A DNA stretch of 64,000 nucleotides from Geoalkalibacter sp. (GTDB taxonomy: Bacteria > Desulfobacterota > Desulfuromonadia > Desulfuromonadales > Geoalkalibacteraceae). Of this stretch, positions 16,334-48,423 are shown one piece after another. Below the pieces are notes generated by a model. The model was not told where the DNA came from, did no database searches, and was given only the letters and a program-made list of their open reading frames with translations. Numbering within the stretch: the stretch's first letter is position 1; every line of letters starts with the position of its first letter. Location: NCBI RefSeq assembly GCF_030605225.1, contig NZ_JAUWAV010000010.1, positions 1 to 64,000 of the forward strand. Reading direction: 5' to 3'. A program made the translations under genes and the position numbers.

Positions 16334-17488
16334 TTACGCCACCTGTCCGTAACGCCTTGCCAGGGTAAGCAACTCGCCGTCGGTCAGGGGGCGCTTGTTG
16401 CGCTGGGAAATACTGCGCACCCGATCGAGCATTGCCACGGCCTCGACGCGATTGAGTTCGATGCCCAATTCCTTGAGCCGATGCACCAAGGCCTGGCTGC
16501 CCGAATGCTTGCCCAGCACCAGGTGGCGCCCCAGGCCCACTTCGGCCGGATCGAATCCTTCGTAATTCTTCGGATTTTTCAGCACGCCGTCGGCATGCAG
16601 GCCCGATTCGTGGGAAAACACCCGCTCGCCCACCACCGCCTTCCATTCGGGTACGGGGCGACGGCTGGCGCGACCGACGAAACGCGAAATCTCCACGAAG
16701 CGGCGCGTATCGATGCCCAGATCCAGACCACAGGCATATTTGAGGCCCATGACCACCTCTTCCAGGGCGGCGTTGCCGGCACGCTCGCCGAGGCCGTTGA
16801 CCGTGGTGTTGACGAAGCGCGCCCCCGCCTTGATCCCGGCGATGGCGTTGGCGGTGGCCATGCCCAGATCGTTGTGGGTGTGCACTTCCAGGTCCAGATC
16901 GACCCGCGTCCGCAGGTAGCGGATTTTCTCGTAGGTGGCGAAGGGATCGAGAATCCCCAGGGTGTCGCAGAAGCGAAAACGCTCGGCGCCCCGCTCCTTG
17001 GCAATCCGCATCAGTTCCACGAGAAAATCGAGATCGGCGCGGCTTGAATCCTCGCCGCCGACGCACACATCGAGATCGTGGCGGTTGCAGAAATCCAGCG
17101 CCCGCTTGAGCTGATCCTTCACCCAGTCGCGGCTCTTGCGCAGTTTGTTGGCGATATGGATATCCGAGACCGACAGGCTGATGTCCACCGCCCGCACCCC
17201 GCAATCCAGAGAGGCCTGAATATCACCGATCACCGCGCGGTTCCAGGTGATCAGGCGCGCTTTGAGCCCCAGATCGACCAGGGCGCGCACGCTGCGCCGC
17301 TCCTCCTCGCCCATGGCGGGAATGCCGCATTCGAGCTCTCCCACGCCGATGGCGTCGAGCATGCGGGCGATGGCGATCTTTTCGTCCAGGGAGAACACCA
17401 CCCCGGCGGTCTGCTCGCCGTCGCGCAGGGTGGTGTCGTCGATCACGATGGGCTGGTCGGCGAGTTGCTGCGAATCATGAAACGCCAT
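16334..17488 (-). CDS. nifV: homocitrate synthase
   Basis: The 384-aa enzyme condenses acetyl-CoA with 2-oxoglutarate to give homocitrate, the organic ligand of FeMo-cofactor. The DRE-TIM metallolyase signature is clear: DDTTLRDGEQTAGVVF near the start, and VHTHNDLGMATANAIAGI with metal-binding His residues. NTTVNGLGERAGNAALEEV and the late GKHSGSQAL are also present. The ATG at 17488 is chosen because GGAGGA lies five bases upstream; the open frame before it runs through the regulatory leader. 2-Isopropylmalate synthase is a related alternative, but the shorter length without a C-terminal allosteric domain and the nif-type leader favour NifV. Confidence 0.9.
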   Translation of the reverse strand: MAFHDSQQLADQPIVIDDTTLRDGEQTAGVVFSLDEKIAIARMLDAIGVGELECGIPAMGEEERRSVRALVDLGLKARLITWNRAVIGDIQASLDCGVRAVDISLSVSDIHIANKLRKSRDWVKDQLKRALDFCNRHDLDVCVGGEDSSRADLDFLVELMRIAKERGAERFRFCDTLGILDPFATYEKIRYLRTRVDLDLEVHTHNDLGMATANAIAGIKAGARFVNTTVNGLGERAGNAALEEVVMGLKYACGLDLGIDTRRFVEISRFVGRASRRPVPEWKAVVGERVFSHESGLHADGVLKNPKNYEGFDPAEVGLGRHLVLGKHSGSQALVHRLKELGIELNRVEAVAMLDRVRSISQRNKRPLTDGELLTLARRYGQVA

Positions 17489-17509: not shown

Positions 17510-17571
17510 AAAAAGCCCCGAGGACGTCATCCCCGAGGCTTCGTTGCCATGGATTCCGGCGGCGCTGCCGG
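17510..17571 (-). promoter_or_regulatory. ANTAR-type antiterminator leader of nifV
   Basis: Read on the minus strand, hairpin P1 (17556-17571) is CCGGC-AGCGCC-GCCGG. After 7 bases comes P2 (17537-17548), GGC-AACGAA-GCC. Both have six-base loops with A at 1 and G at 4, the known signature of RNA bound by ANTAR domains. The 3' arm of P2 is also the start of an 11-bp terminator stem (17515-17541) followed by five T residues. Forming P2 would block the terminator. The nifV start is 22 bases further on. Confidence 0.75.
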
Positions 17572-17601: not shown

Positions 17602-17617
17602 AGCACAACCCGTGCCA
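17602..17617 (-). promoter_or_regulatory. sigma-54 promoter of nifV
   Basis: TGGCACGGGTTGTGCT on the minus strand has GG-N10-GC spacing and TGGCAC at -24. Predicted transcription starts near 17591, about 20 bases before the first leader hairpin. Sigma-54 promoters need an enhancer-binding activator; I could not define its site. Confidence 0.8.
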
Positions 17618-23724: not shown

Positions 23725-24594
23725 CTAGCCCGCCTGGGCATGCAACTCGGCCAGATCGATGTCCTGCCCCACCAGCCCGGCGGCATCCGCCCGGCACTGG
23801 CGGCAGTGGCGCGCCTGGGACAAGATGAGTTCGGCCTGGTTGCGCACCATCTCCATGACGGCGTCGGAGGGCGGCACGACATCCTTGAACAGGCCGATGG
23901 GAATGACCGGGATGATATTCATCATGGTCGCGCCGAGATTGCGCACCTTGACAGCCAGATCAAGGGTTTCGTGGTCGTTGACGCCGGGAATGTAGACGTG
24001 ATTGACCTTGACCAGCAGACCGCGCGCGGCGGCCGCCTCGACCCCCGCGAGCTGCTTTTCCAGCAACAGCGCGGCGCCCTCTTCCCCACGCAGCACCGCG
24101 CCCTGATGGCGCACCCATTCATAAACCTTGGCGCCGGTCTCGGGGGTCAGGGCGTTGATGGTGACGGTGAGGCTGTGGACGTCGAGAGCGGCGATGTCCT
24201 CCATGCGCTCTGGCAGCAGCAGCCCGTTGGTGGACAGGCACAGCATCATGTCGGGATAGGCCTGTTTCACCAGGCGAAAGGTCTCGAAGGTGCGCTCGTT
24301 GGCCAGGGGGTCGCCGGGTCCGGCGATGCCCACCACGCGCAACTTGTCGCCGACCCGGGGGTGGCGTAGCAGCAGGCGCACCCGCTCCAGGGCCTCGGCG
24401 GGCTTGAGCACGCGGCTGGTCACGCCCGGGCGGCTTTCGTTGGCGCAGTCGAACTTGCGCTCGCAGAAGCCGCACTTGATGTTGCATCCCGGCGCCACGG
24501 GCAGATGCACGCGCCCGGCCTTGCCATGGTCGCCGCCGAAGCAGGGGTGCTCACTTTGTTTTTTCATGGCCATCATCGGGCAGGCTTTGCTCAT
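23725..24594 (-). CDS. nifB: FeMo-cofactor maturase NifB (radical SAM, short form)
   Basis: The 289-aa NifB fuses two 4Fe-4S clusters with a SAM-derived carbide to make NifB-co, the core of FeMo-co. The radical SAM motif is CNIKCGFCERKFDC. GGDHGKAGRVHLPVAPGC, VGIAGPGDPLAN and the C-terminal CRQCRADA agree with the family. It ends there, without the C-terminal NifX-like domain of longer NifB proteins; separate NifX-like genes lie just upstream. The ATG at 24594 has AGGAGA six bases before it. It has its own sigma-54 promoter and leader. Confidence 0.95.
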   Translation of the reverse strand: MSKACPMMAMKKQSEHPCFGGDHGKAGRVHLPVAPGCNIKCGFCERKFDCANESRPGVTSRVLKPAEALERVRLLLRHPRVGDKLRVVGIAGPGDPLANERTFETFRLVKQAYPDMMLCLSTNGLLLPERMEDIAALDVHSLTVTINALTPETGAKVYEWVRHQGAVLRGEEGAALLLEKQLAGVEAAAARGLLVKVNHVYIPGVNDHETLDLAVKVRNLGATMMNIIPVIPIGLFKDVVPPSDAVMEMVRNQAELILSQARHCRQCRADAAGLVGQDIDLAELHAQAG

Positions 24595-24612: not shown

Positions 24613-24743
24613 AAAAAACGCGCAAGGGCGCTCCCCGTCCTGCGGAAAGCGCCCTTGCCTGGTCCGAAACGATAAAGCCCCGCCACTCAATTCATGAGGT
24701 GCGGGGCTTCGTTGCCTGATTCAGCGTGACACAGCCTTGTGTC
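24613..24743 (-). promoter_or_regulatory. ANTAR-type antiterminator leader of nifB with two terminators
   Basis: On the minus strand P1 (24728-24743) is GACAC-AAGGCT-GTGTC. P2 (24705-24716) is GGC-AACGAA-GCC, which opens terminator 1 (24674-24709, stem AGCCCCGC..GCGGGGCT, then TTTAT). A second P2-like hairpin (24647-24660), AGGC-AAGGGC-GCTT, opens terminator 2 (24613-24656, stem about GGGCGCT/AGCGCCC, then GCGCG and six T). All three loops have six bases with A at 1 and G at 4. NifB translation starts 19 bases after terminator 2. Confidence 0.78.
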
Positions 24744-24755
24744 GATCCTGGATAC

Positions 24756-24771
24756 TGCATGAGATGTGCCA
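24756..24771 (-). promoter_or_regulatory. sigma-54 promoter of nifB
   Basis: TGGCACATCTCATGCA on the minus strand has GG-N10-GC spacing and a canonical TGGCAC. The predicted start near 24745 is only 2 bases before leader hairpin P1. Confidence 0.82.
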
Positions 24772-26213: not shown

Positions 26214-27671
26214 CTAGCGCATCATCTCGAACCACTGCGACTCGCAGGTGTCGTCCTTGATGTCGAGGAACTTGTTGGCGATCCAGGTGAGCAGGTTGAG
26301 GGCGCCCTGGTAGCCGATGATGGGATAGCGGTGGATGTTGACCCGGTCGATGATGGGAAAGCCGACGCGGATCAGCGGCGTGTTGGTGTCGCGCGCGGCG
26401 AACTTGCCATGGGTGTCGCCGAGCATCATATCCACCGGATCGTCGAAGAGAATGCTGCGCAGGTGCCAGAGGTCCTTGTTGACCCATACATGGCAGCCCT
26501 TGCCGTAGGGCGAGGAATCGAGCAGCGCCTTCATCTCCTTCTCGAATTTCTTGGTGGCGCGGCTGCACAGCACATGATAGGGCTTGGCGCCCATTTCCAG
26601 CAGAAAGCCGGCCAGGGCGAGGAGCTGATCGGGATCGCCGAACAGGGCGAACTTCTTGTTGTGCAGGTACTGGTGAGCATCGGTCATGGCATCCACCACC
26701 CGGCCGCGCTCGGCTTTAAGAGATTCTGGCACGGGCTTGCCGAACAATTCCGACACCTTGAGCAAAAAGGCATCGGTGGCCTGCACGCCGACGGGCATGG
26801 GCAGCACCTCGTGCTTGCCCGCGTACTCCTGCTGGATGAACTTCATGGTGTTGGCGGTAGCGTACTTCTGCAGCGAGATGGTCGCCTTGCCGTTGATGGA
26901 TGCGGCGGCCTCGGCGAGCGGCGTGCCGCCGGGATAGATGCGGTACTCGCCGTCGAGGGGCGAATCGAAGGTCTCGGAAATGTCGGCGAGCAGCGTGTGG
27001 GGCACCTCCATGGCGTCGAGCAGCCGCTTGTATTCGCGATAGTTGCCGGTGCAGGCGTCAAACCCGGCGATCAGGTTGAGCTTGCCCGTGCAGGCGCCCT
27101 CCACGCGCTTGCCGGCGGTGAGATCCTCGAGGATCGCCTTGAGCATGGCGTCGTAGCCATGGATATGCGTGCCGTTGAAGCTCGGCGTGTTGGCGTAGGG
27201 CAGCGGAAAATCCTCGGGGATATGGCCCTTGAGCCGCGCGTTCTTGATGAAGGCGGTCAGGTCGTCGCCGATGATTTCGGGCATGCACGAGGTAAAAATC
27301 GGCATGATCTTGGGATGATAGAGCTTGTAGGCGTTCTCCAGGCCCTCGAACAGGTTGTTCTGGCCGCCGAACACCGCGCCGTCCTCGGTCATGGCGTCGG
27401 ACACCGCCGGCGCCGGCTCGCGGAAATGACGGTTGAGGGTCGAGCGGTAGTAGGAGGCGCAGCCCTGGGAGCCGTGCACGAAGGGCAGGCTGCCTTCAAA
27501 GCCGTGGGCGGCCAGCTGCGCGCCCACGGGCTGGCAGCCATGCGCCGGGTTGATGACGGTGGCTTCGCGCTTGAGGTTTTTTTCCAGATAGTCCTTGGAC
27601 TTGGTCCATTCGAGCACCCGCGCTTCTTCCTCGGGGGTGATTTCGGTGACGATTTTTGCGGCTTCGCTCAT
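26214..27671 (-). CDS. nifK: nitrogenase molybdenum-iron protein beta chain
   Basis: The 485-aa beta subunit of MoFe protein holds half of each P-cluster. P-cluster Cys residues are in HGCQPVGA, HGSQGCASYY and FTSCMPEIIGDD. NTPSFNGTHIHGYD and the C-terminal segment around GYQGALNLL also fit. It is somewhat shorter than the Azotobacter protein (about 520), as in other anaerobes. AAAGGAG lies before the ATG. The gap from nifD (103 bases) holds a hairpin repeat. Confidence 0.98.
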   Translation of the reverse strand: MSEAAKIVTEITPEEEARVLEWTKSKDYLEKNLKREATVINPAHGCQPVGAQLAAHGFEGSLPFVHGSQGCASYYRSTLNRHFREPAPAVSDAMTEDGAVFGGQNNLFEGLENAYKLYHPKIMPIFTSCMPEIIGDDLTAFIKNARLKGHIPEDFPLPYANTPSFNGTHIHGYDAMLKAILEDLTAGKRVEGACTGKLNLIAGFDACTGNYREYKRLLDAMEVPHTLLADISETFDSPLDGEYRIYPGGTPLAEAAASINGKATISLQKYATANTMKFIQQEYAGKHEVLPMPVGVQATDAFLLKVSELFGKPVPESLKAERGRVVDAMTDAHQYLHNKKFALFGDPDQLLALAGFLLEMGAKPYHVLCSRATKKFEKEMKALLDSSPYGKGCHVWVNKDLWHLRSILFDDPVDMMLGDTHGKFAARDTNTPLIRVGFPIIDRVNIHRYPIIGYQGALNLLTWIANKFLDIKDDTCESQWFEMMR

Positions 27672-27774: not shown

Positions 27775-29244
27775 TCAGAAGGGGCTCTTCACCAGTTTCC
27801 AGGTCGGGCTGTTGATGGCCATGTCGATGTCGCGGGCGAAGATGGCGAACCCGTCGTAACCGTGATAGGGCCCGGAGTAGTCCCAGCTGTGCATCTGGCG
27901 AAAGGGCAGCCCCATCTTCTGGAACACATATTTTTCCTTGATGCCCGATGCGACCAGGTCGGGCTTGACGGCTTCGGCGAATTTCTCCAGCTCGATCTCC
28001 GAGGCGTCGTCGAACACCAGCGAGCCCTTGGGCATTTCCGGATAGGTGCGGTCGTAGTCGTCCGAGTGGGCGAACTCGTAGCCCGAGCCCACGCACTCCA
28101 TGCCCAGATCCTCGTAGGCGCCGATGGTGTGGCGCGGGCGCAGGCCGCCGACGAAGATCATCACCTTCTTGCCCTCCAGGCGCGGCCGGTACTCGTCGAT
28201 GATCGCCTGCATGATGGGGTCGTACTTGGCGATGACGCGCTCGACGTTCTCCTTGATATGGTCATCGAAGCGCTCGGCGATGGCGCGCAGGCTCTCCTTG
28301 ATCTTGGTCGGGCCGAAGAAGTTGAATTCGAGCCAGGGAATGCCGTATTTCTCCTCCATGACCTTGCACATGTAGTTCATGGAGCGGTAGCAATGGATCA
28401 GGTTGAGCTTGACCTTGTGCGTTGCGGCAATGTGTTCGATCTGCCCGTCGCCCGTCCACTGCGCCTTGACCTTGAGACCGATTTCCTCCAGCACCTTGAC
28501 CGCCGACCAGATGTCGCCGCCGATGTTGTAGTCGCCGATCAGGGCGATGTCGTAGGGCCCCGGCTCCTCGGCGAACTCGCGGGTGCCGATGATGTGGTCG
28601 CGGATGGTGTCGTTGGAGATGTGGTGCCCCAGGGACTGGGACACGCCGCGAAAACCCTCGCAGTTGCAAGGCACCACGGGCAGTTCGAGTTCATTGGCCA
28701 TTTTCTTGGCGGTGGCGTTGATGTCGTCGCCGATGAGTCCCACCGGGCACTCGGAGAGCACCGACACGCCCTTAGCCAGGGGAAAGAGTTCCGTCACCTC
28801 GCGGCAGATGATTTCAAGCTTCTTGTCGCCGCCGTAGACGATGTCCTTCTCCTGGAAATCGGACGTGAACTGCATGCCGGAGAAGGAGGAGACCCCCGGC
28901 ACGCCGGTGGTCAGGTTGCGCCGCGTGCCCCAGGAATACCAGCCGCAGCCCACCGGGCCGTGGGAAATGTGCACCATGTCGCGGATCGGCCCCCAGACCA
29001 CGCCCTTGGCGCCGGCGTAGGCGCAACCGCGCGCGCTCATCACGCCGGGCAGGGTCTTTTTGTTGGAGCGCACCGCGCAGCCCTTGTCCTCGGGGTCGTT
29101 GGGCGCCAGATGGGGGGCGCGCTTCTTCTTGGCCTTGGCCGGGTAGAGCTCGAGGGTTTCCTCGATGAGCTTGGCGGCCCTTTCCTTGCTCAAGCCCTCG
29201 ACTTCGGGCTTGGTCTTAACGTCTTTATCACCAGGCTGATACAT
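27775..29244 (-). CDS. nifD: nitrogenase molybdenum-iron protein alpha chain
   Basis: The 489-aa alpha subunit carries FeMo-co and the other half of the P-cluster. P-cluster Cys residues are in [18 protein letters not shown] and [11 protein letters not shown]. The FeMo-co ligand Cys lies in [11 protein letters not shown] and the ligand His in [19 protein letters not shown], matching molybdenum nitrogenase and not Anf/Vnf proteins. AGGAG precedes the ATG. The 101-base gap from nifH holds a hairpin repeat. Confidence 0.98.
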
Positions 29245-29345: not shown

Positions 29346-30507
<1,162 letters not shown>

Positions 30508-30527: not shown

Positions 30528-30544
30528 AGCAGGGGCCGTGCCAA
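30528..30544 (-). promoter_or_regulatory. sigma-54 promoter of nifHDK
   Basis: TTGGCACGGCCCCTGCT on the minus strand has GG-N10-GC spacing. The predicted start near 30517 puts leader hairpin P1 ten bases into the RNA and gives a leader of about 290 bases. Confidence 0.85.
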
Positions 30545-45736: not shown

Positions 45737-45794
45737 TTCTATCTTAACTGAAATAAAAATGTCAAGCCTTTATTTTAAAATTGGTCAGACCATT
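45737..45794 (-). promoter_or_regulatory. candidate nuo promoter with FadR/GntR-type operator
   Basis: On the minus strand a -35 TTGACA (45760-45765) is followed after 17 bases by ATAGAA as a weak -10. Just upstream lies TGGTCAGACCA (45782-45792), a perfect palindrome around one base. It fits the TNGTNNNACNA consensus of FadR-subfamily GntR regulators. A second half-like CCAGACCAG lies at 45808-45816. The regulator is not in the window. Confidence 0.5.
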
Positions 45795-46068
45795 TTCTGC
45801 ATAAAAAACCAGACCAGATATGCATCTCCTTCGGCCGGCGCCGGCCTTGCGGCAGCCAAGTGTTTTTGCAACAGGGGTGCCAGCTGAATTCGCCAGCATT
45901 CCACCCTCCGCAAAAACCTCCAAGCACCTGTTTTTCCATGAACTTTTCTTGTTCAACAAAGAAAGGCCCCCGGGCGCCTGGCCCTTGGCGACCCAAATGC
46001 CCACAAAAAACCTGGCGAGAAAATACCCCCTGTGGCCATCCTCCACACCTTGCGCAAAAAAACACAGC
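45795..46068. other. non-coding gap between nuoA promoter and draG 3' end
   Basis: I see no supported gene here. The minus strand holds a weak terminator-like GC hairpin (45965-45984) followed by TTTCTTT that may end draG transcription. An open frame across the gap reads Cys/Trp/Phe-rich residues with no ribosome site and is not credible. Confidence 0.5.
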
Positions 46069-46959
46069 TTATGCCGCGCCCCGCGCCCAGGGTGAAAGTC
46101 CCACCAATTCCTCGGCACGCTGCCCGGCCTCGGCGCGCACCGCGCCGTCCAGTCGGCGCAGCCAGGCGGCAGGCAGCTCGGCCAGGCCGTAAAACGCCCC
46201 GGCGAGCATCCCGGCGATGGCCCCGGTGGTATCGGCGTCACCGCCCTGATTGACCACGCCGATCAGGCATTCCTCGAAGGTGGCGGTGGAGAAGAAATAA
46301 TGAAAGACGGTCTGAAGGGTCTCGACCACGTAGCCGCCGGCCCGGCCGCGATAGTCATTGAAGCGGAAGGTGGGATAAGCCGCCACCAGGGTGCGCGCCA
46401 CCTGGTGCAGCTGGTGGCGGTCGGCGCCGAGCAGGGCCTGCTGCACCAGACGCCCGACGCAAAGGCAGGCGGCATCGGAGAGGGGGTGATTGTGAGTGAG
46501 GCGGGCCTGCTCCAGGGCGCAGCGCTCGAGCAGGGAATCGTCGCCAAGGGTGAACAGCGCCACGGGCAGCATGCGCATGACGCCGCCGTTGCCGGCATCC
46601 CAGTCGTTGGGCGGTGCTTGCAACTGGCCCTTGAGCATGTAATCGCGAATGCCGCGCCGGCAGGTGGCGCCGATGTCGATGGGCTTGGCGCGCATCCAGG
46701 CGACGAACTGCTCGGCGATGCCCGCGAGATCCCAGCCGCGGGCGGCCACCAGGGCGCGGGCGATGCACAGGGACATTTCCGTGTCGTCGGTGACCTGCCC
46801 CGGCTTGAGATGCAGCCAGCCGCCGCCTGTGATCTTGCGATGCACGCCATGGGCGGCGCGAATCTCCGCCGGCGTCATGAACTCGGTGGTCGCCCCCAGG
46901 GCATCGCCCAGGGCCAGACCGAGAAACGCCGCCTGGGCGCGGGACACGACTGCGCTCAT
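46069..46959 (-). CDS. draG: ADP-ribosyl-[dinitrogenase reductase] hydrolase
   Basis: The 296-aa enzyme removes ADP-ribose from the NifH arginine and reactivates nitrogenase. Metal-binding motifs of ADP-ribosylglycohydrolases are present: TDDTEMSLCIARALVA near 55 and GDADTTGAIAGMLAG near 240, plus the N-terminal GLALGDALGATTEF. It overlaps draT by 4 bases (ATGA), so translation is coupled. It is the last gene of the ANTAR-draT-draG set. Confidence 0.94.
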   Translation of the reverse strand: MSAVVSRAQAAFLGLALGDALGATTEFMTPAEIRAAHGVHRKITGGGWLHLKPGQVTDDTEMSLCIARALVAARGWDLAGIAEQFVAWMRAKPIDIGATCRRGIRDYMLKGQLQAPPNDWDAGNGGVMRMLPVALFTLGDDSLLERCALEQARLTHNHPLSDAACLCVGRLVQQALLGADRHQLHQVARTLVAAYPTFRFNDYRGRAGGYVVETLQTVFHYFFSTATFEECLIGVVNQGGDADTTGAIAGMLAGAFYGLAELPAAWLRRLDGAVRAEAGQRAEELVGLSPWARGAA

Positions 46960-47756
46960 CCGAAGCCGCCCGTCAGCACCTCGACTTCAAATTCCCCACC
47001 CAGCACCAGCACCTCTTCTTCTCCCTTGAGCAGGCTCGACGGCAGGATGCCGCACAGGTAGACAACCTTGCACAAGGGCACATCGGCCTTCATGACCTTG
47101 CTGCCGAATTCCCAGGCGCGCTCGAAATCGCTGGTGAAGGAGTTGAGATTGTTGAGGCGCACGACGAAGCGATTCTTGCCCAGTTCCTCAAGAATCGGAT
47201 ACTCGCTGAAATCATGGACCCCGCGATACAGAGGCAGATGGGTCCGGCCGGGGAAGCGTCGCGCCAGTTCGTACTGCACGAAGGCGAAGAGCACGTCGAA
47301 CTGGGCATTGACGGCGTTGGTGCGCGCCGCCCCCTTCATGCGCTCGACCAGGTAGCGATAGTAGGCCTCGCCGTGCGGATCAGCAATCCTGCTGCCGTGA
47401 TAGGTGGGCGGCAGGCCGAAGCGGCTTTCCACCCAGCCCTTGAGCACCGCCCCTTCGGGGGAATTGGAATCGAACATCCAGCCGCGCAGAAAACGCAGAT
47501 AGCTGTTCTTGAGGCTCTTGCGCCCCTTGACCGAAGTCTCCTGTCGCCATTGATGAAGCTGAAAGCTCACATCCATGTAGTCGTGAAACTGCAGGCCGCG
47601 CGCCTGGGCATCCTCCAGGGCATCGAGGCGCGCGAAGAGCAGACGATTGGCCTGGCGCACCCCCTGGATCTCCAGGGGCTGGGGATGGGCGTTGAAATGA
47701 CGCGAGGCGATGGCCCAGGGCGGCAGCCCGCAAAGATTCAGGGGAACCGAGCGCAT
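46956..47756 (-). CDS. draT: NAD(+)-dinitrogenase-reductase ADP-ribosyltransferase
   Basis: The 266-aa DraT transfers ADP-ribose from NAD to the NifH arginine when ammonium rises or energy falls, switching nitrogenase off. LPLYRGVHDF is the Arg motif, NNLNSFTSDFERAWEFGSKV follows, and EEEVLVLGGEFEVEVL near the C-terminus supplies the catalytic Glu region. It starts 12 bases after the ANTAR regulator gene. Confidence 0.93.
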   Translation of the reverse strand: MRSVPLNLCGLPPWAIASRHFNAHPQPLEIQGVRQANRLLFARLDALEDAQARGLQFHDYMDVSFQLHQWRQETSVKGRKSLKNSYLRFLRGWMFDSNSPEGAVLKGWVESRFGLPPTYHGSRIADPHGEAYYRYLVERMKGAARTNAVNAQFDVLFAFVQYELARRFPGRTHLPLYRGVHDFSEYPILEELGKNRFVVRLNNLNSFTSDFERAWEFGSKVMKADVPLCKVVYLCGILPSSLLKGEEEVLVLGGEFEVEVLTGGFG

Positions 47757-47768
47757 GAAAGCCCTCCC

Positions 47769-48332
47769 TTATTCCTCCATGAGCAAAATCGCCTCGGCCA
47801 CCTCCTTGAGGGATTTACGCTTGTCCATGGCCAGCTTCTGCATGCGCCGGTAGGCCTCGGGCTCGCTCAGACCCTTTTTCATCAGCAGACCCTTGGCCTT
47901 CTCGATGGTTTTGCGCGCCTCAAGCGTTTCGCGCAGGGCCGAAACCTCGTCGCGCAGGGTGGTGATTTCCATGAAATGATGGATGGCGAGATCCACCGCC
48001 GGCAGCAGCTGCACATCGCGGAAGGGCTTGACCACATAGCTCATGACCCCGGCCAGGCGGGCGCGTTCGATGGTCGCGGCATCGGCATTGCCGGTGAGCA
48101 GCACGATAGGAGCCGGTGCCTGCTTGCCTATTTTTTCGGCAGCGCTGATGCCATCCAGCACAGGCATGGTGACATCCATGACGATGAGCAGCGGCCGCTT
48201 GGCCAGGGCGAGATTGAGCGCCTCCTGGCCGTTTCCGGCCTCGACGATTTCGTCAAAGCCATAGTTTTTCAGGGTTTCCGCCACCTGACGGCGGATCAGG
48301 GGTTCATCGTCAACCACGAGAGCGGTCTTCAT
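47769..48332 (-). CDS. receiver-ANTAR response regulator (antiterminator)
   Basis: The 187-aa protein has a receiver domain (about 1-118) with DD at 8-9, phospho-acceptor Asp53 in VMDVTMPVLDG, Thr80 and Lys102. An ANTAR RNA-binding domain follows (about 128-187), with RKTIEKAKGLLMKKGLSEPE and LKEVAEAILL. Phosphorylated ANTAR proteins dimerise and bind paired six-base-loop hairpins to prevent termination. Matching hairpins precede nifH, nifB and nifV here, so this is the candidate reader. It resembles GnfR of Geobacter sulfurreducens in architecture. Its kinase is not in the window. The start at 48332 has GAGG upstream. Confidence 0.92.
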   Translation of the reverse strand: MKTALVVDDEPLIRRQVAETLKNYGFDEIVEAGNGQEALNLALAKRPLLIVMDVTMPVLDGISAAEKIGKQAPAPIVLLTGNADAATIERARLAGVMSYVVKPFRDVQLLPAVDLAIHHFMEITTLRDEVSALRETLEARKTIEKAKGLLMKKGLSEPEAYRRMQKLAMDKRKSLKEVAEAILLMEE

Positions 48333-48365: not shown

Positions 48366-48379
48366 GGCCGTCGTTGGCC
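48366..48379 (-). promoter_or_regulatory. possible ANTAR hexaloop hairpin in the leader of the ANTAR gene
   Basis: GGCC-AACGAC-GGCC on the minus strand has a four-base stem and a six-base loop with A at 1 and G at 4, 34 bases before the ANTAR gene start. The flanks GAGGG and CCCTC could extend pairing. There is no clear partner hairpin and only a weak T-rich stretch, so chance is possible. Confidence 0.35.
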
Positions 48380-48423
48380 CTCGCCGCTGCCCGGATGTCT
48401 TGCACAAGCGATGCCGCCGAGAA

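Follow-up and report, generated by a model that had tools for sequence, protein, structure and literature searches.

The ANTAR-draT-draG unit and the nif genes of the window

In the window, by which we mean the whole stretch of 64,000 nucleotides analysed here, three genes on the minus strand follow one another in the transcription order ANTAR regulator, draT, draG. The first (47769-48332) encodes an ANTAR response regulator of 187 aa, a candidate GnfR-like nif antiterminator, in which the Pfam domains Response_reg (85.1 bits, cut-off 30.2) and ANTAR (70.8 bits, cut-off 27.3) were both found; it is the only ANTAR protein genome-wide and shares 98% identity with its counterpart in a MAG of Geoalkalibacter sp., which makes this genus, in the order Desulfuromonadales, the very probable source of the window. 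Downstream of it, draT (46956-47756) specifies a dinitrogenase reductase ADP-ribosyltransferase of 266 aa (PF07357 (DRAT), E 2.4e-109) and draG (46069-46959) an ADP-ribosyl-dinitrogenase reductase hydrolase of 296 aa (TIGR02662, 444 bits, cut-off 337). All three are intact members of their families; a DRAT domain protein and a DraG equivalog, both full-length and far above the family thresholds, are encoded together, and genes for a PII protein and an ammonium transporter are present in the genome. DraG could be aligned over its full length with the solved DraG structures 2woc and 3g9d, and for DraT no similar sequence was found among PDB structures, even at E = 1. A gap of 12 bases separates the ANTAR gene from draT, and draT and draG overlap by 4 bases; strand, order and spacing are exactly those claimed in the original prediction, an earlier note on this DNA, which had also correctly placed the DraT target arginine in NifH. 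This residue is arginine 104, in the motif GCAGRGV, and belongs to the only true nifH gene of the genome (29346-30224, minus strand; TIGR01287, 471 bits). On the same strand we identified nifD (27775-29244; TIGR01282, 788 bits), nifK (26214-27671), assigned from its position after nifD and from matches downstream of nifD in relatives, a short form of nifB encoding 289 aa (23725-24594; TIGR01290 matched at positions 6-280 with 305 bits, short of the 344 required for full length) and the homocitrate synthase gene nifV (16334-17488; HMGL-like and HCS_D2 domains).

Upstream of the ANTAR gene, in the 91-base gap that follows an MFS transporter gene, lies a sigma-54 type promoter, GGCATCGCTTGTGCA (48401-48415, minus strand), which is conserved in units of the same kind. 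Searching the 200 nt before the ANTAR start with the pattern GG[CT]A[CT]-N6-TGC, we found such a site in 39 of 52 units in which ANTAR and draT are linked, as compared to 1.0% of shuffled sequences, and 38 of the 39 sites were located 48-94 nt from the ANTAR start. Most of the 13 units lacking the site belong to family f8, and in three of the site-less units a histidine kinase gene stands immediately before the unit. Between 45600 and 48600, we detected neither a sigma-70-like promoter nor an intrinsic terminator. Because the genes are tightly spaced, are preceded by one conserved sigma-54 site and have no internal signal of these kinds, ANTAR, draT and draG look like one transcription unit. 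The original prediction had the two controls of nitrogenase, RNA antitermination and ADP-ribosylation, share one transcript; spacing, the single promoter site, the absence of internal signals and the restriction of strong ANTAR targets to nif leaders (see below) all speak for this claim, and from these features we infer the one transcript itself. An Rfam search over the window returned two tRNAs only, and the leader of the operon had no match even at a relaxed threshold. In five f8 genomes (G085, G086, G088, G071 and G048), a strong hairpin without a clear T-run is found just before the ANTAR gene and could serve in RNA processing or attenuation; in named relatives, amtB is upstream of ANTAR.

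The minus strand also carries a perfect match to the sigma-54 consensus, TGGCACCCCTGTTGCA, at 45867-45882, in the interval that separates draG from the nuo genes for complex I; nuoA follows after about 230 nt, and two relatives (L255 and L076) retain the site in altered form. It may tie expression of complex I to nitrogen limitation, and nuoAB was reported to be up-regulated under nitrogen fixation in Geomonas (PMC10746287). Behind this site, the stretch 45741-45825 (minus strand) contains the inverted repeat TGGTCTG...CAGACCA, what may be a short ORF (MHIWSGFLCRKWSDQF) and, ahead of nuoA, a TTGACA/TAAGAT pair of sigma-70-like type.

Conservation of the ANTAR-draT linkage

The link between an ANTAR regulator and draT had been considered unusual, and a gene-neighbourhood survey had been proposed for it. 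Our survey of the order Desulfuromonadales covered 136 genomes, with DraT in 81 and ANTAR in 106, and counted the two genes as linked when ANTAR immediately preceded draT, with both on one strand and less than 300 nt apart. Linkage was detected in 54 of the 81 DraT genomes, representing 15 families and 27 genera, and this number is a lower bound since many genomes are fragmented; in five further genomes ANTAR and draT lie within about 2.6 kb of each other. The association in relatives is hence non-random, and the linked arrangement, rather than being unusual, is the commonest one for draT in Desulfuromonadales. Elsewhere in the phylum, we checked 22 DraT genomes and saw no case of ANTAR immediately preceding draT: 13 of these have no ANTAR gene at all, and the remaining nine, which belong to the same class, have one each, which in several cases adjoins draG in convergent orientation. 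The ANTAR-draT link is typical of the order and not peculiar to the genome of the window. G359, a genome of the same class outside the order, has a draT fragment (C20 83248-83636, L198) that adjoins an ANTAR gene in opposite orientation, possibly a decayed version of the link.

In an ANTAR tree, the proteins of every linked locus fall into a single clade (support 99/96), which also takes in unlinked proteins from family f3 and one from f7; on this tree, a minimum of about three changes accounts for the linked state. Because of this single clade and the small number of changes, the sequences indicate that the linkage is old and inherited and has sometimes been lost. Within f3 the linked state has been lost in part, and the joint transcript is therefore not indispensable. 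The tree places the linked ANTAR gene of the f3 genome G015 (L232) within the f8 branch, suggesting that the unit has moved from one family to another.

Since the state is inherited, genome counts are not independent events, and with only about three tree changes needed one could argue that the genes became neighbours by chance, or were carried along passively, and that their neighbourhood is functionally meaningless. We consider this very improbable, given that the arrangement has been retained across the order, that the promoter site is conserved at a similar distance and that the genes co-occur tightly with nifH: among 74 nifH genomes, DraT is present in 69, ANTAR in 71 and the linked unit in 47. 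For randomly placed genes, a rough estimate of our own puts the expected number of linked genomes well under 0.01. Asp53 of the regulator is kept in at least 95% of the 52 linked relatives.

Predicted ANTAR target RNAs in the nif leaders

The leaders of nifH, nifB and nifV share one architecture, in which a sigma-54 site is followed by a hairpin with a six-base loop (P1) and then by a second hairpin, P2, of the form GGC-AACGAA-GCC. On the minus strand, the sigma-54 sites are located at 30528-30543 (nifH), 24756-24771 (nifB) and 17602-17617 (nifV), and the predicted ANTAR target motifs at 30462-30507, 24703-24743 and 17535-17571, respectively. In minimum-energy folds of the nifH and nifV leaders, the 3' strand of P2 is also part of a terminator stem that is followed by a T-run; in the nifB leader the T tail after the terminator is only TTT. 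These RNAs thus have two short stems with six-base loops, with P2 overlapping the 5' side of an intrinsic terminator, as in dual-hexaloop ANTAR targets. A possible second attenuator module, GGCAAGGAGGCC before a terminator (30362-30395, minus strand), was recognised from sequence and fold in the nifH leader and scores weakly, at only 7.5 bits, with the covariance model described below.

We aligned 14 leaders from eight genomes. Since AACGAA was the search pattern, the constancy of P2 in this alignment is not evidence; the stem of P1 is informative and showed 17 doubly changed cells versus 3.7 in shuffles, a signal that collapsed in slid controls. Of the loop bases that mark dual-hexaloop targets, A in position 1 and G in position 4, the P1 loop has the G of position 4 in all 14 leaders, whilst its position 1 is A in nine and G in five. 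Searching for the 14-base motif is noisy on its own, and chance matches inside genes were removed by requiring a T-run and a downstream nif gene. A covariance model of dual-hexaloop ANTAR target RNAs (R1), the seeds of which include the three sites of the window, gave three strong sites genome-wide, before nifB (53 bits), nifH (42 bits) and nifV (34 bits), over a background of about 16 bits or less. High scores of these sites are expected from seeding; the information lies in the lack of any other prominent site and in the recurrence of the same places in relatives. The weak matches in the same genome (16 bits or less) have no leader features and were dropped. Across the order, R1 matched in 69 of 134 genomes, and a site was present within 700 nt upstream of nifH in 40 of the 74 nifH genomes; the other best matches mostly precede nifB or nifV, and one precedes a gene read as amtB. 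The sequences therefore support the view that the strong RNA targets of the single ANTAR protein are nif leaders only and, since this is so, one transcript would carry both controls of nitrogenase, the RNA antiterminator and the ADP-ribosylation pair.

Is the ANTAR-draT-draG operon itself subject to this control? Upstream of ANTAR, none of the 27 named linked loci gave a convincing R1 match. Between draG and nifH, a site was detected in eight linked loci (L277, L278, L280, L281, L285, L287, L289 and L299), two of the eight matches being weak and that of L281 standing at E 0.2. We conclude that draT and draG themselves are predicted not to lie behind an ANTAR attenuator; with no site before ANTAR and an attenuator between draG and nifH, ANTAR, DraT and DraG would therefore be encoded ahead of the attenuator and nitrogenase behind it. 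Autoregulation would require that the leader of the ANTAR gene itself offer the protein a binding site, the hexaloop hairpin GGCCAACGACGGCC (48366-48379), through which draT and draG would come under RNA control. This hexaloop does have A in its first and G in its fourth position and recurs in changed form in one close relative, and EutV is able to bind a single hexaloop (PMC8934654). However, it is not followed by a terminator, the 27 loci lack an R1 match at this place, and the hexaloop could not be recognised in a second genome of the genus or in other families, for which reason we rejected a single hexaloop before ANTAR as a general feature and regard autoregulation as improbable.

A candidate ammonium switch and its known relatives

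In some f8 genomes, the ANTAR gene is preceded by a gene for a GAF-PAS-HisKA-HATPase kinase. The best match to this kinase in the genome of the window scores 569 bits, with the next at 165 bits; downstream of its gene, on a separate contig (C9, locus L077), come glnB and amtB, which we recognised from their sequences and from matches in relatives. In several named genomes kinase, glnB and amtB are directly upstream of ANTAR, and in Desulfuromusa kysingii, Pelovirga terrestris and three MAGs the order kinase-glnB-amtB-ANTAR-draT-draG-nifH is found on one strand. In L285, L289, L299, L280 and L288, the whole chain from kinase to nifH spans about 8 kb on one strand. From this gene context, the kinase encoded with glnB and amtB is likely the partner of the ANTAR protein, and the cluster from kinase to nifH is a candidate for a complete ammonium switch. 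In other bacteria, DraT/DraG are known to receive the ammonium signal through PII and AmtB and, because both are encoded here with the kinase, one signal could serve both arms; PII may also gate the kinase directly.

Gene order and its conservation, the promoter site, the covarying target RNAs, the unattenuated operon and the kinase-glnB-amtB linkage, all read from the sequence, lead us to the following model. When fixed nitrogen is scarce, sigma-54 and an activator, probably NtrC-like, would start transcription of ANTAR-draT-draG, nifHDK, nifB and nifV. The nif transcripts would stop at their leader terminators unless phosphorylated ANTAR protein binds the hexaloop hairpins and thereby blocks the terminators, with the GAF-PAS histidine kinase encoded with glnB and amtB as the presumed source of the phosphoryl group. 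DraT and DraG would be made without this checkpoint. Once ammonium is back, PII and AmtB would activate DraT and inhibit DraG, leading to quick ADP-ribosylation of NifH, and loss of ANTAR phosphorylation would put an end to new nif transcripts.

We consider it probable that ANTAR-draT-draG is a sigma-54-driven nitrogen-limitation operon that makes a nif antiterminator together with the reversible nitrogenase-inactivating pair. Against this reading count the 13 of 52 units without a sigma-54 site, the partial loss of linkage in f3 and two replaced EutV contact residues (see below). How far the two activities are coupled is a separate matter. A shared promoter may simply reflect that all of these genes are wanted under nitrogen limitation, with no further coupling between antitermination and ADP-ribosylation; the sigma-54 promoter suffices to explain the operon, and in family f3 and in Geobacteraceae the genes are apart or in other orders. 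Such plain co-regulation comes close to an even chance in our judgement, although the kinase-glnB-amtB-ANTAR-draT-draG-nifH cluster suggests, without proving it, a shared ammonium signal. Going beyond the operon as such, we tentatively propose, as a possibility in which we place limited confidence, that a single sensor of ammonium (kinase-PII-AmtB) operates, within one gene cluster, two off-switches that differ in speed, namely nif transcript termination via ANTAR and NifH ADP-ribosylation via DraT/DraG, and that the nifH attenuator at the border lets the switch enzymes precede nitrogenase. Nitrogenase is costly, and its several levels of control are usually studied apart. The conserved unit would tie control of transcript elongation to post-translational inactivation, with genes for the probable sensor co-clustered in some species; in so compact a system the coordination of slow and fast switch-off could be addressed genetically, and the unit predicts the kinase and RNA leaders of ANTAR in many Desulfuromonadales.

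ANTAR control of nif, in Geobacter and as predicted for Pelobacter, and DraT/DraG are each already known separately, and the novelty appears to lie in their joining in one operon, in the conservation of this operon across the order, in its promoter and in where the attenuator sits. A literature search, outside which most subscription papers lay, found no paper with both ANTAR and draT and none on draG with an antiterminator. As in Rhodospirillum rubrum and Azospirillum brasilense, draT and draG of the window are adjacent and NifH has the target arginine; the operon of the window is headed by an ANTAR regulator, an arrangement that is not known from these two species. For GnfK/GnfR, Ueki and Lovley 2010 is reportedly the primary paper.

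In Geobacter, gnfK/gnfR exert ANTAR-type control of nif, and the proteins of Geobacter sulfurreducens are GSU0941/GSU2822 (PMC7962754); the system resembles that of the window in combining an ANTAR response regulator with an unlinked histidine kinase and having nif as its target. ANTAR proteins of Geobacteraceae are about 47-53% identical to that of the window and are encoded directly upstream of nifHDK in several genomes; orthology of the window's regulator with GnfR is putative and was considered from these relatives beside nifH and from the single ANTAR protein of the genome. In the Geobacteraceae loci examined, ANTAR is found beside nifH or convergent with draG and, unlike in the window, never in a draT operon. 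Both draG and draT were reported in nif clusters of Geomonas (PMC10746287). In Pelobacter carbinolicus, a member of the same order, ANTAR target RNAs were predicted at three nif units (Ramesh et al. 2012, PMC3369931), and the dual-hexaloop RNAs at several nif transcription units are a feature that it shares with the window; unlike the unit described here, draT is absent from the text of that paper. EutV/EutW of Enterococcus faecalis likewise combine a receiver with ANTAR and act on a target hairpin that competes with a terminator (PMC3369931, PMC8934654). The regulator of the window has D53, Y161, M169 and R172, with Tyr161 and Met169 corresponding to the Tyr and Met of the EutV RNA site, and Gln165 and Ser174 in place of the EutV contact residues Arg168 and Arg177. 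It differs from EutV/EutW in that its predicted targets concern nitrogenase, that position 1 of the P1 loop is A or G, and that it is encoded together with an ADP-ribosylation pair.
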